The position numbers and the translations under genes were made by a program. This document shows, piece by piece, positions 58,961 to 64,000 of a DNA stretch of 64,000 nucleotides. The notes under the pieces are model-generated. The model was not told where the DNA came from, searched no databases, and was given only the letters and a program-made list of their open reading frames with translations. The stretch is taken from NCBI RefSeq assembly GCF_000092865.1, contig NC_014151.1:1612001-1676000 (forward strand), written 5' to 3'. The stretch comes from Cellulomonas flavigena DSM 20109 (GTDB lineage Bacteria > Actinomycetota > Actinomycetes > Actinomycetales > Cellulomonadaceae). Within the stretch, counting starts at the first letter, position 1, and every line of letters starts with the position of its first letter.

Positions 58961-59028
58961 GGTGGGACAACGTCACAGGGTCGCCGTCTGCGCCCCGCCG
59001 TGCAGGACAGACGACAGGAGGCCAGGTC

Positions 59029-59589
59029 ATGGGCGCGCCAGCTACCGCACCCCGGGTGCGGGAGGTCGTGGAGACCGCCGTGACCGGCGCGGGCCTGCTG
59101 CTCGACGGGCTGGAGGTGGCCGGGAGCGGGCGCAGCACCGTGGTCCGCGTCACCGTGGACCTCGCGGACGACGACCCGGGCACCCTCGACCTGGACCGGG
59201 TGGGCGACGTCACGCGCGCCGTCTCGGACGCGCTGGACGCCGCGGACGTGCTCCCGGGCGCATACACGCTCGAGGTCGGCAGCCCGGGGGCGGAGCGCCC
59301 GCTGACGCTGGCCCGCCACTGGCGCCGCGCCCGCGGCCGCACCGTGCTGGTGCGACGCACGGACGGCACGACGCTCACGGGGCGCCTCGACGGCGTCGCG
59401 GACGGCGACGCGCCGGAGCTCGTCGTGGTGCCGGTGACGGACCCCGGCAAGGGGCGACGCCCGGTCGTGGGCGCACCGGTGACGTTGGCGTGGGACGACG
59501 TGCGCGACGCACGGGTGCAGGTGGACCTCGCCGCGGTGCGCGAGGCCGACGAGGAGGCCGGGCCGCAGGACGGCACGGGGAGGGGCTGA
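59029..59589 (+). CDS. rimP: Ribosome maturation factor RimP
   Basis: A 186-residue 30S assembly factor. N-terminal alpha-beta domain ([20 protein letters not shown], about 10-29; [20 protein letters not shown]) with [14 protein letters not shown] at the domain boundary (about 79-92), then an SH3-like barrel ([18 protein letters not shown]). Length is typical for actinobacteria. nusA follows after one base, so the two are co-translated; this rimP-nusA-infB order is near universal in bacteria. Confidence 0.93.
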
Positions 59590-59590
59590 C

Positions 59591-60685
59591 GTGGACATCG
59601 ACATGCAGGCGCTGCGACTCATCGAGCGCGAGCGGGAGATCAGTCTCGACGTGCTCGTCGAGGCCATCGAGCAGGCGCTCCTGTCCGCCTACCACCGCAC
59701 CCCCGGCGCACGCTCGCGAGCGCGGGTGGAGCTCGACCGCCGGACCGGGCACGTGACGGTCTGGGCGCGGGATCCCGCGCCCGAGGCCCCGGCCCCGGAG
59801 GTGGCCGAGGACGGGACCGTGGTGGCCGTGGCCCCCGCACCCGAGATGCCCGAGTACGACGACACGCCCGAGGGCTTCGGGCGCATCGCGACCGCCACCG
59901 CACGCCAGGTCATCGTGCAGCGGCTGCGTGACGCCGAGGACGACCAGGTGCTCGGCACGTTCCGCAGCAAGGCCGGCGAGGTGCTCGGCGGCGTGATCCA
60001 GCAGGGCCGCGACCCGCGCACGGTCCTGGTCGACGTCGGCGGTGTCGAGGCCGTCCTGCCGGCCCACGAGCAGGTGCCCGGCGAGAGGTACGTGCACGGC
60101 GAGCGGCTGCGGGCCTTCGTGCTGGAGGTCGCGCGGGGGCAGCGCGGGCCCCAGATCACGCTGTCGCGCACGCACCCGAACCTCGTCCGCAAGCTCTTCG
60201 CCCTCGAGGTGCCGGAGATCGCCGACGGGACGGTCGAGATCACCGCGATGGCCCGTGAGGCCGGGCACCGCACCAAGATGGCGGTGCGGGCGAACGTCGC
60301 CGGCGTCAACGCCAAGGGCGCGTGCATCGGCCCGATGGGCGGGCGCGTGCGCGCCGTCATGGCAGAGCTGCACGGCGAGAAGATCGACATCGTCGACCAC
60401 TCGGACGACCCGGCCGAGATGATCGCCCACGCGCTGTCCCCGGCGCGCGTCCTCGACGTGAGGGTCGTCGACGCGGCCGCCCGTGCGGCGCGCGTCGTGG
60501 TGCCCGACTACCAGCTGTCGCTCGCGATCGGCAAGGAGGGGCAGAACGCCCGTCTCGCCGCGAAGCTCACCGGCTGGCGGATCGACATCCGCTCCGACGC
60601 CGAGCCTGCCGCCGGGACGGCCGGTGCGGCCTCCGTGCGCGGTGCCGACGACGCGGGCGCGGGGGCCTCCGGTCACGTCCGGTGA
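59591..60685 (+). CDS. nusA: Transcription termination/antitermination factor NusA
   Basis: A 364-residue NusA: N-terminal RNA-polymerase-binding domain (about 1-125), S1 domain (about 130-200, [16 protein letters not shown]), KH1 (about 215-275, [13 protein letters not shown] and [16 protein letters not shown]) and KH2 (about 285-345, [19 protein letters not shown]). It lacks the C-terminal acidic repeats of E. coli NusA, as usual in Gram-positives, and ends in an Ala/Gly-rich tail. GTG 59591. Confidence 0.96.
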
Positions 60686-60695
60686 CAGGGCGCGG

Positions 60696-60701
60696 TAGAC
60701 T
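60696..60701 (+). promoter_or_regulatory. Possible internal -10 for ylxR-infB
   Basis: TAGACT just after nusA could start a ylxR-infB transcript near 60708. If real, the longer ylxR frame that begins at 60682 would not be translated from it. Confidence 0.4.
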
Positions 60702-60768
60702 CTCCGAGGCTGGGCCGGCTGCCCGGCTCTCCTCGCCGAGCAGGCGGAACCCCGATCCCGCGCATCCC

Positions 60769-61104
60769 GTGCCCGAACCGGGTCCTGTCCGCACGTGCGT
60801 GGGGTGCCGTGCGACCGGTCGCAGGTCGGCCCTGCTGAGGGTGGTGCTGTCCGACGTGGGCGCGGGGGAACCTGCGCTCGTGGCGGACGAGCGCCGCAGG
60901 ATGCCGGGCCGGGGTGCGTGGCTGCACCCCGACCAGCGTTGTCTCGAGCTCGCCGTGCGACGGCGGGCGTTCGGGCGGGCGCTGCGGTACACGGGCCCCC
61001 TGGGGACCGAGGCCGTGGAGCGCGCCGTGACGCGGCTCGCCGCGCAGCAGCCACAGCACAGCACCACGGTGCCGGACCCGACGTCCGGTACCGACCGTCG
61101 ATGA
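60769..61104 (+). CDS. ylxR: YlxR family RNA/nucleoid-associated protein
   Basis: A 111-residue YlxR (DUF448). The family motif RTCVGCRATGRRSALLRVVL (about 8-27) is followed by PGRGAWLHPDQRCLELAVRRRAFGRAL (about 47-70, in part). YlxR binds nucleic acid, and in B. subtilis it acts as a transcription factor and RNase P interactor. I chose the GTG at 60769, which puts the motif at the N-terminus as in relatives; GTG 60682, overlapping the nusA stop, adds 29 residues of low similarity. The stop overlaps an ATG that begins the micro-frame chain before infB. Confidence 0.85.
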   Translation: MPEPGPVRTCVGCRATGRRSALLRVVLSDVGAGEPALVADERRRMPGRGAWLHPDQRCLELAVRRRAFGRALRYTGPLGTEAVERAVTRLAAQQPQHSTTVPDPTSGTDRR

Positions 61105-61181
61105 GGAAAGCGGGTTGGAAGCCGATGGCGACCCGATGAGCACGCACCGATGAGTACCCAGCGATGAGTACCCAGCACTAA
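61101..61181 (+). other. Chain of four overlapping micro-ORFs on a 14-bp tandem repeat, infB leader
   Basis: Starting with an ATGA overlap on the ylxR stop there are four consecutive tiny frames: 61101-61139 (MRKAGWKPMATR), 61136-61153 (MSTHR), 61150-61167 (MSTQR) and 61164-61181 (MSTQH, TAA stop). Each start overlaps the previous stop as ATGA. The last three rest on a tandem 14-mer: CGATGAGCACGCAC (61134), then CGATGAGTACCCAG twice (61148, 61162). The chain ends 43 bases before the infB GTG. A ribosome finishing ylxR could step through by re-initiation. Function is inferred only. Confidence 0.7.
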
Positions 61182-61224
61182 CGACGGTCCGACCCTGTCC
61201 GGGGCGGACCAGGACAGGAGAGAT

Positions 61225-64000
61225 GTGGCCAAGGTCCGCGTCTACGAGCTCGCGAAGGAGCTCGGGGTCGACAGCAAGACCATCATGACCAAGCTCAACG
61301 AGCTCGGAGAGTTCGTCCGCTCGGCGTCGTCGACGATCGAGCCCCCCGTCGTGCGCAAGCTGCGCGACACGTACCCCGTCGGTGGGTCCGGCGGCCGCCC
61401 GACGGCGCCCAAGGCCCCGGCGGCGCCCAAGGCCCCCGCCGCGGCGCGCCCCGCCGCGCCCGCGGCCCCCGCCGCACCGGCGCCGGCTGCTCCCGCGGCG
61501 GCCGCCCCGCAGGCCCCGGCCGACTCCGCGCCGGCGGCTCCGGCACCGGCTGCCACGGCAGCGGTCGCGCAGGCCCCGGCCCCGCAGGCTCCCGCGCCGC
61601 AGGCGCCGACCGCGCGTCCCGCTCCCGCCGCTCCCGCAGCGCGCCCCGGCGCACCGCGTCCCGGTGGTGGCGGCAGCGGCGGTGGCGGTGCACGTCCCGG
61701 CGCGCCGCGTCCTGCGGCCCGTCCGGGCAACAACCCCTTCGCGCCCGCCCAGGGCATGCCGCGCCAGGGCGAGCGCCCCGGCGGGCCGCGCCCCGGTGGG
61801 CCGCGTCCGGGCAACAACCCGTTCGCACCGTCCCAGGGCATGCCGCGTCCCGGCGACCGCCGTCCGGCCGCCGAGGGCGCGCCCGCGGCTGCCGCCGGCG
61901 ACCGTCCCGGTGGGCCCCGTCCCGGCGGTCCGCGTCCCGGTGGTCCGCGCCCGAACCCGGGCATGATGCCCGGTCGCACGCAGAGCGGTGTCGGCCGCCC
62001 CGGTGAGCGCCCCGCGCCCGCCGGTCGCGGAGGCGGCGGCGGTCGCGGCGGCTACGGTGGCGGCCCCGGCCGTCCTGGTGGCGGCGGTGCACCCGGTGGC
62101 GGCGGCGGGTTCGCCGGTCGTCCCGGTGGTGGCGGTCGTCCCGGTGGCGCCGGTCGCGGCTCCACCCAGGGTGCGTTCGGTCGTGCCGGCGGTCGCCCCG
62201 TCCGCGGCCGCAAGTCGAAGCGGGCGAAGCGCCAGGAGTTCGAGCAGATGCAGGCGCCGTCGCTGGGCGGCGTCTCCGTCCCGCGCGGCAACGGCAAGAC
62301 GGTCGTCCGCCTGCGCCACGGCTCGTCGCTGAACGACTTCGCCGACAAGATCGACGCGAACCCCGCCTCGCTCGTCACCGTGCTGTTCCACCTCGGTGAG
62401 ATGGCCACCGCGACCCAGTCGCTCGACGAGGACACGTTCGGCACGCTCGCGGCCGAGCTCGGCTACGTCATCGAGATGGTCTCGGCCGAGGAGGAGGACC
62501 GCGAGCTGCTCGGGGCCTTCGACATCGACCTGGACGCCGAGCTCGAGGCCGAGGGCGACGACGTGCTCGAGGCGCGTCCGCCCGTCGTCACCGTCATGGG
62601 CCACGTCGACCACGGCAAGACCAAGCTCCTCGACGCCATCCGGTCCACGGACGTCGTCGCGGGCGAGGCCGGCGGCATCACCCAGCACATCGGTGCGTAC
62701 CAGGTGCGCACGGAGCACGAGGGCATCGACCGCGCGATCACGTTCATCGACACCCCGGGTCACGAGGCGTTCACCGCCATGCGTGCCCGCGGTGCGCAGG
62801 TCACGGACATCGCCATCCTCGTGGTCGCGGCCGACGACGGCGTGATGCCTCAGACGATCGAGGCGCTGAACCACGCGCAGTCGGCCAACGTGCCGATCGT
62901 CGTCGCGGTCAACAAGGTGGACAAGGAGTCGGCGAACCCCGACAAGATCCGCCAGCAGCTCACCGAGTACAACCTCGTGGCCGAGGAGTACGGCGGCGAC
63001 ACCATGTTCGTCGACGTCTCCGCCAAGCAGCGCATGGGGATCGACGAGCTGCTCGAGGCGGTCCTGCTCACGGCGGACGCCGCGCTCGACATGCGCGCCA
63101 ACCCGGACAAGGACGCGCGCGGTGTCGCGATCGAGGCGAACCTCGACAAGGGCCGCGGGGCCGTCGCCACGGTGCTCGTGCAGTCCGGCACGCTGCAGGT
63201 CGGCGACGCGATCGTCGCCGGCACGGCCCACGGCCGCGTCCGCGCGATGCTCGACGAGCACGGCGAGAACGTGACCGAGGCCGGCCCGGCCCGTCCCGTG
63301 CAGGTCCTCGGCCTGTCGTCGGTGCCCCGCGCGGGCGACACCTTCCTGGTGGCGCCCGACGAGCGCACCGCGCGGCAGATCGCGGAGAAGCGCGAGGCGG
63401 CCGAGCGTGCCGCCCTCCTGGCCAAGCGCCGCAAGCGCATCAGCCTCGAGGACTTCACGCAGGCGCTGCAGCAGGGCAAGGTCGAGACCCTCAACCTCGT
63501 TCTCAAGGGCGACGTGTCGGGTGCGGTCGAGGCCCTCGAGGACGCGCTGCTCAAGATCGACGTCGGCGACGAGGTCGACCTGCGCGTCATCCACCGCGGG
63601 GTGGGTGCCATCACGCAGAACGACGTCAACCTGGCGACGGTCGACAACGCGATCATCATCGGCTTCAACGTGAAGCTCGCGCCGCGCGTCGAGGAGCTGG
63701 CGGACCGCGAGGGCGTCGACGTGCGCTTCTACTCGGTCATCTACCAGGCGATCGACGACGTCGAGGCCGCCCTCAAGGGCATGCTCAAGCCGGAGTACGA
63801 GGAGGTGCAGCTCGGTAGCGCCGAGGTGCGCGAGATCTTCCGCTCCTCGAAGTTCGGCAACATCGCCGGTTCCATCGTGCGCTCGGGCGAGATCCGACGG
63901 AACTCCAAGGCGCGCGTGCTCCGCAAGGGCAAGCTCATCGGGGACAACCTCACGATCGAGTCCCTCAAGCGGTTCAAGGACGACGCGACCGAGGTCCGCG
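61225..64000 (+). CDS. infB: Translation initiation factor IF-2 (3' end outside window)
   Basis: 925 codons are visible; the frame is open to the window edge and only a short C-terminal stretch is missing. IF2-N ([17 protein letters not shown], about 2-18) is followed by a Pro/Ala/Gly/Arg-rich region (about 55-330) containing two PGNNPFAP repeats and long RGGGG tracts. Next come a second N-domain (about 335-450) and the G domain with GHVDHGKT (about 458-465), DTPGHEAFT and NKVDKE, then domains II-IV. GTG 61225 has AGGAG four to eight bases upstream. IF-2 brings fMet-tRNA to the 30S subunit and promotes subunit joining. Confidence 0.96.

Follow-up and report, generated by a model that had tools for sequence, protein, structure and literature searches.

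The window analysed here, 64,000 nucleotides of Cellulomonas flavigena DSM 20109 (contig NC_014151.1, positions 1,612,001 to 1,676,000), ends within infB, the gene for initiation factor IF2. Its gene neighbours, identified by Pfam, are nusA, ylxR and infB, and the features between the last two are collected in Table 1. The first 51 residues encoded by infB match a named Cellulomonas record (L163) at 98%. Between ylxR and infB lie four ATGA-linked micro-ORFs on a 14-bp repeat, all of them present where the initial annotation of this DNA had placed them; TRF reports the repeat at 61134-61176, in 3.1 copies. Nowhere else in the 64 kb, on either strand, do three or more micro-ORFs (starting with ATG or GTG and no longer than 8 codons) overlap in a chain, and the last unit of this one ends 43 nt upstream of infB.

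Table 1. Features of the ylxR-infB region, in window coordinates
Feature	Position	Strand	Remarks
ylxR	60769..61104	+	Pfam YlxR PF04296, E 1.4e-19, over 60769-61101; stop TGA 61102-61104; start GTG 60769 is putative, a guess from the reading frame
Purine-rich block GGAAAGCGGGTTGGAAGCCG	61105..61124	+	Precedes the first conserved micro-ORF
Micro-ORF 1, MATR and stop	61125..61139	+	Shares its frame with the 12-codon extension that starts at ATG 61101; counterpart of MSTR/MSAR/MGTR in relatives
Micro-ORF 2, MSTHR and stop	61136..61153	+	ATGA 61136-61139 overlaps stop 1; stop 61151-61153; three-unit relatives have one unit fewer than the window
Micro-ORF 3, MSTQR and stop	61150..61167	+	ATGA overlap 61150-61153; stop 61165-61167
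Micro-ORF 4 (last), MSTQH and stop	61164..61181	+	ATGA overlap 61164-61167; stop TAA 61179-61181
Hairpin H1	61186..61210	+	GGTCCG 61186-61191 / CGGACC 61205-61210, plus inner CCC/GGG pairs
Alternative hairpin H2	61194..61218	+	CCTGTCC 61194-61200 / GGACAGG 61212-61218; extends into the Shine-Dalgarno AGGAG
infB Shine-Dalgarno AGGAG	61216..61220	+	Read from the sequence; tail ACAGGAGAG is frequent in relatives of the same order
infB (IF2)	61225..64000	+	GTG start; continues past the window end; Pfam IF-2 PF11987, E 8.2e-39, and IF2_N PF04760, E 2.9e-24

The chain had been described as beginning with a 12-codon frame. Such a frame is present: the ylxR stop overlaps an ATG (61101-61103), and the frame from 61101 reads MRKAGWKPMATR, with its stop at 61137-61139. 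The conserved first unit is instead the inner frame ATGGCGACCCGATGA, and the longer frame that starts at the ylxR stop is a local feature, found in 2 of 41 Cellulomonas-type loci tested. The infB start lies inside ATGTG (61223-61227), its GTG being overlapped by an ATG in another frame that begins at 61223; a published study deals with initiation at AUGUG (PMC9841429). A cmscan of 59000-62000 against Rfam, up to E = 1, gave two matches, both sub-threshold and neither overlapping 61101-61224. On the minus strand at 59411-59467, opposite the ORF before nusA, there is a sub-threshold Rfam match to P37 (29.1 bits, gathering threshold 50), which is likely due to chance.

With the first 51 residues of InfB as the query, 377 of 394 genomes of the class Actinomycetes were matched. 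The 120 class loci that we read are a non-random draw, consisting of the 30 best matches, 60 loci hand-picked to spread over families and 30 more picked likewise. At least three overlapping micro-ORFs precede infB in 117 of them, the loci being mutually related, so that the counts are not independent events. All 39 families sampled include at least one locus with a chain of this length; no such chain was found in 40 loci of the phylum's other classes, hand-picked from 129 matches. When the 120 upstream regions were shuffled with dinucleotides preserved, 248 of the 12000 resulting sequences held a chain of at least three units, with ATG or GTG as start and up to 12 codons per unit; a stricter rule (ATG only, at most 8 codons) gave 16 of 12000 against 106 of 120 observed. 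The reverse-complement control has a chain in 5 of 120. Shuffles and control fall far below the observed count, and the earlier judgement that the chain is hard to explain as chance stands. Accident or local duplication without function might be argued from the 14-bp unit, which has been gained or lost within the Cellulomonas relatives, but we regard it as hardly credible: the conservation relative to shuffles and the result for the other-class loci contradict it.

The algorithm that counts units takes the longest chain. Among named loci it finds at least three units in 79 of 80, a few of them mis-chained, and L194 is cut by the contig end. Mis-chaining affects L057, L181, L207, L215, L218, L237, L238 and L240; the usual arrangement can be seen by eye in the first five of these. 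Fewer than three units occur in L013, L065, L081 and L237, the last of which, from Bifidobacterium thermophilum, has two by eye. Typical chains are like MSTR-MSTQR-MSTPQH, or like the MSTR-MSTR-MSTPMN of Streptomyces. The suggestion in the initial annotation that similar repeats precede infB in Streptomyces proved right, Streptomyces sp. HNM0575 (L190) having MSTR-MSTR-MSTPMHK. Family f11, presumably mycobacteria-like, has MSTP-VKSRR-MTMRRS.

In a search within the genus, each of the 30 loci had four units; in 29 every junction is ATGA, and L269 has a single GTGA. The 42 Cellulomonas-type loci comprise the window, 29 from this search (29 of 54 matching genomes) and 12 named loci; the named ones were added after the four units had been noticed, and the fair count is that of the 30 only. 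A MAG labelled Cellulomonas sp. (L176) has three units, as do Oerskovia, Cellulosimicrobium and others. Across the ylxR-infB gaps, the overlaps are thus kept, as had been expected of a conserved element, whereas unit number, spacing and the MST peptides are not strictly kept. Another genome of the window's genus (G588) holds a second match to the InfB N-terminus at C1:1600314-1600463, 78% identical and in a shorter open frame (284 aa).

How the units are joined bears on whether they are translated. In 190 of 196 chains (six loci with the last stop outside 25-75 nt were set aside), the first junction is ATGA in 168, GTGA in 11, TGATG in 6 and TAATG in 5; the second is ATGA in 187 and something else in 3. 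Junctions switch among close relatives, with ATGA in L185, TGATG in L203 and GTGA in L269. The spacing between units varies (8, 11, 14, 17 or 20), and overlap and frame persist. The chain rule itself demands overlap; independent support comes from the shuffles and from the ATGA-to-ATGA spacings, which, counted without that rule, are 2 modulo 3 in 204 of 227. The off-pattern spacings come from in-frame inner Met codons, from a GTGA lying between ATGAs (25 = 11 + 14), from ATGAs further upstream or from adjacent ATGATGA; L096 and L097 are unclear. The peptides differ between families (MSTR, MKSLK, MSTTKS, MRPVR and others), and neither a conserved peptide nor a run of regulatory codons was found among them. 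Since overlap and frame persist while spacing and junctions change, the conserved trait is that of terminating and restarting, with no sequence motif. As far as the compared sequences can tell, this trait appears to be under selection, and the comparison suggests that the chain is a relay translated by ribosomes. The excerpted main text of a mycobacterial profiling paper (PMC9094748) does not mention infB.

The exact 11/14 arrangement of units was matched 39 times in 37 of 60 genomes; 25 of these matches lie just upstream of InfB matches, 9 are relay-like and unplaced, and 5 are apparently unrelated. A reversed-pattern control gave one match. The genome of the window has none, because its spacings differ (11/14/14, with ATGG at the first unit). 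Dispersed copies of the MIRU type were not found, the strict pattern occurring at most twice per genome in the 60 genomes and a chain once in the window. One could take the repeats to be protein-binding RNA or DNA motifs (GATGAG) whose reading frames are incidental; a CGATGAGYACC unit is indeed conserved in the window's relatives, and TRF finds a tandem repeat. This explanation seems very improbable to us. It is at odds with the GTGA, TAATG and TGATG junctions, with the varying peptides, with spacings from 8 to 20 that are still 2 modulo 3, and with three loci in which a last ORF of 23-25 codons still stops 1 nt before H1.

Ribosomes may enter the relay in more than one way. Positions -20 to -11 before micro-ORF 1 have an information content of 0.19-0.68 bit, with purines predominating (85 loci, 33 families), and the purine-rich block of the window is, from its composition and place, a possible ribosome-loading site. 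The position of ylxR was measured from the third-last micro-ORF start in 115 loci, ylxR not being found in 5 further ones. That start is in the -1 overlap with the ylxR stop in 18 of the 115, an undercount for four-unit loci such as the window, where the measure uses the second unit. The ylxR stop is upstream of the third-last start in 80, up to 229 nt away, and the end of ylxR ranges from within the relay to 229 nt before it. On these counts, coupling to ylxR was rejected as the core function. Metering of ribosomes arriving from ylxR, which the initial annotation had suggested, cannot be the general function either, because the ylxR junction is not conserved. The micro-ORFs might instead be a mere ribosome sink that insulates infB from ylxR read-through. 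That ylxR ends within the relay or at a relay junction in some species would suit such a sink, but it is an improbable one, given those 80 loci and the purine block that precedes the relay. In 11 of 41 Cellulomonas-type loci, among them L163, L167, L178 and L243-L245, the ylxR frame continues into the relay and terminates 26 nt beyond the start of the first micro-ORF. Relay DNA there encodes the YlxR tail, and ribosomes can thus join the relay part-way.

At the other end, the last stop lies 31-63 nt upstream of infB in 115 of 117 chains, the outliers being 71 and 116. The data are consistent with the re-initiation relay of the initial annotation; its further idea, that the relay feeds the infB start directly, is unlikely on this geometry because of that distance and of the hairpin that usually lies between. 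Of the best hairpins that end near the infB start, one per locus, 143 in 199 loci begin 0-4 nt past the last stop; shuffling these regions gave that placement in 78 of 995 cases. Median hairpin scores are 24.5 observed and 16 shuffled. In many cases, about 12-17 nt separate the end of the hairpin at this place, H1, from the infB start codon. In the window, it is both the minimum free energy structure of the leader after the last stop and the centroid, with a shuffle z of only -0.40 for 61165-61250. By eye, no U-run terminator was seen in the infB leaders.

The last ORF was called at 10 codons or more in 18 loci; the stop is 1-2 nt before H1 in L091, L117, L198 and L214, and at least five of the remaining loci are mis-chained. 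Adjacency of stop and H1 failed the automated fit in L022, L097, L119, L196, L202, L225 and L239, of which L225 fits by eye. In L091, L117, L196, L198, L202, L214, L225 and L239, the last relay ORF was called at 23-36 codons rather than 5-7; these long ORFs have sequences unlike one another, and several of the loci are named Micrococcaceae.

A second hairpin, H2, can form from part of the same leader. Covariation was scored in all 60 named loci of the window's order plus the window (56 distinct sequences). In H2, 8 of 10 pairs and 33 cells are changed on both sides, against 20 cells in the best slid control; in H1, 3 of 6 pairs and 8 cells. Both scores were reached by none of 500 shuffles, and both are inflated by relatedness. 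Cells are paired in 95.3% for H1 and 74.3% for H2, and a measure based on further pair types was not significant for H2 (68 of 500 shuffles). A first set had held 38 picked sequences (the window and 37 of the 60 named loci of the order, the other 23 being omitted as near-duplicate or diverged), with both-side changes in 3 of 6 H1 pairs and 5 of 10 H2 pairs; there, sliding the H1 partner by one column gave equal numbers of such pairs and cells. H2 arms pair better with their own partners than with exchanged ones (mean -14.57 vs -12.31 kcal/mol, z -7.3, n = 60 window-order loci), a difference that relatedness also inflates. Timonella (L191) is a clear case, with CAGT pairing with ACTG where others have CTGT with ACAG.

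H1 and H2 share bases in the fuller form seen in relatives, and the window's 3' arms are separated by a one-base gap, which from the geometry would be too short for both hairpins to coexist as a full pseudoknot. Mutually exclusive structures, one of them reaching the Shine-Dalgarno, are supported in the window's order only. Elsewhere H2 is weak: z is -2.6 pooled over 87 loci, none of 11 single families is clear, and f26 goes in the opposite direction. An anti-Shine-Dalgarno partner in every order is thus unsupported, within-locus pairing being clear only in the window's order. A first version of that test, discarded since its tail window held the H1 3' arm, had given p <= 0.05 for 3 of the 21 loci from the window's order and for 30 of the other 99.

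Relative to the base that opens the last stop codon, the 5' arm of H1 begins at a median of +6 and that of H2 at +13 (35 of 57 strong-H2 loci). By toeprint geometry, a ribosome whose A site holds a stop codon extends to about +12, so that one positioned on the last stop would mask the 5' arm of H1 and spare that of H2. When the leader alone was folded with 12 nt masked, Shine-Dalgarno accessibility dropped in 37 and rose in 6 of 70 window-order loci, and dropped in 80 and rose in 3 of 100 others, a drop not distinguished from trivial release of the H1 3' arm. Folding with 30 nt of coding sequence gave 11 drops vs 4 rises in 73 window-order loci and 7 vs 10 in 101 others. An earlier folding with an artificial downstream sequence had given 6 drops and 12 rises in 70 window-order loci, and 27 and 6 in 100 elsewhere. 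The masking effect is nearly gone once coding sequence is included, so the folding leaves the sign of regulation undecided.

Our preferred interpretation, to which we give slightly less than even confidence, is that a re-initiation relay here forms a translational attenuator upstream of infB, which exerts negative feedback on IF2. A ribosome would load at the purine block, or come from ylxR where the two overlap, translate 4-5 codons, terminate and re-initiate at the overlapping AUG, and this cycle would repeat over three units, or four in Cellulomonas. Passage through the relay would then fall as a power of the re-initiation efficiency, itself presumably set by IF2 and initiator tRNA, giving a steep read-out. 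A ribosome completing the relay would halt just before H1 and cover its 5' arm; in the window's order, masking H1 would allow the formation of H2, which would sequester part of the infB Shine-Dalgarno, and less IF2 would be made. With IF2 scarce, the relay would fail, H1 would fold first and exclude H2, and infB would be translated. Re-initiation in E. coli requires both initiator tRNA and IF2, the latter perhaps to a greater degree than de novo initiation does (excerpts of PMC2268962). We infer that IF2 is the limiting factor and that the feedback is negative. The data are consistent with the IF-2 autoregulation envisaged in the initial annotation, the sensing itself being our deduction, and there is a precedent in IF3, which autoregulates through its own start codon, ATC in Streptomyces (excerpts of PMC5472188). 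With somewhat less confidence again, we suggest that the relay may act throughout the class as a sensor, in which serial start-stop re-initiation would be a non-linear meter of IF2 and initiator tRNA that sets IF2 through the hairpin switch. The read-out is less certain outside the window's order, where H2 is not established.

The same translated relay could work with the opposite sign: completing ribosomes would melt H1 and open the infB ribosome-binding site, coupling infB positively to initiation capacity. An H1 that ends so close to the start codon could hinder 30S binding, and no H2 is clear outside the window's order, both of which would suit this reading. In the window's order, however, masking H1 would release, not destroy, the covarying partner of the Shine-Dalgarno, and in our judgement positive feedback on an essential factor would be an unusual design; we consider the opposite sign rather unlikely. 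Slightly less likely still is that the relay holds ribosomes on the leader against Rho or RNases, or spaces the ribosomes, with no sensing of IF2. In mycobacteria, translated uORFs have been linked to Rho-dependent termination, and the relay spans about 57 nt of the window's leader. For such protection one ordinary small ORF would suffice, yet at least three overlaps are kept despite changes of length and junction.

NTGA coupling, alternative-hairpin attenuation and control by re-initiation at multiple uORFs are all known. Their combination in the leader of a bacterial initiation factor, as a class-conserved chain of micro-ORFs, was not found described in the literature searched, nor, within the terms used, was any infB micro-ORF relay. 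The relay has the stop-start overlaps of termination-re-initiation coupling, 4 nt (NTGA, -4) or 1 nt (TRATG, that is TGATG or TAATG, -1), the same junction types as in excerpts of PMC12548453 and PMC6728339. That coupling links genes pairwise, whereas the relay consists of 3-4 micro-ORFs, mostly of 4-7 codons, that are not joined to the infB start. Mycobacterial RTGA-coupled small ORFs are likewise joined to the next ORF (excerpts of PMC4633059, and MIRU in excerpts of PMC12548453), but there a single small ORF is linked to a gene start and MIRUs are dispersed, whereas the relay is nearly single-copy, at infB. In attenuators of the ilvB1 type, the position of a ribosome on a leader ORF picks between two structures, as proposed here (M. 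tuberculosis ilvB1; excerpts of PMC13236596); the relay differs in being without evident regulatory codons or an arrest peptide, its proposed signal being the success of re-initiation. At infC, as in the proposed relay, expression of an initiation factor is set by that factor through the step on which it acts (excerpts of PMC5472188), but there by start-codon discrimination, whereas the relay concerns a different factor and is based in the leader. GCN4 and ATF4 resemble it in that several uORFs read the supply of initiator-tRNA ternary complex and set a downstream ORF (excerpts of PMC11550727). They are non-homologous and depend on 40S scanning, whereas the relay has immediate overlaps and would act on the gene of the initiation factor itself. 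Nor is eIF2 homologous to IF2.

To our knowledge, control of IF2 levels in bacteria outside the enterics has been little studied. Micro-ORFs of 4-5 codons are below the usual size limits of gene finders and may have been overlooked for that reason. If the proposal is true, it would open IF2 control in Streptomyces and relatives to direct study and supply a natural assay of re-initiation efficiency; bacteria, like eukaryotes, would read initiation capacity by re-initiation at uORFs, a counterpart of GCN4/ATF4 in logic.

The infB leader was also encountered under unexpected labels. A MAG named Spirochaetaceae CAN_BIN15 (L189) carries an actinobacterial-type infB, with relay peptides and leader identical to those of L006, in family f16; its contig is possibly mis-binned. 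A 4.5-kb record labelled Bacteriophage sp. (MT839133.1) matches the infB leader at 292-397 with 79% identity over 65% of the query, and is possibly bacterial DNA.
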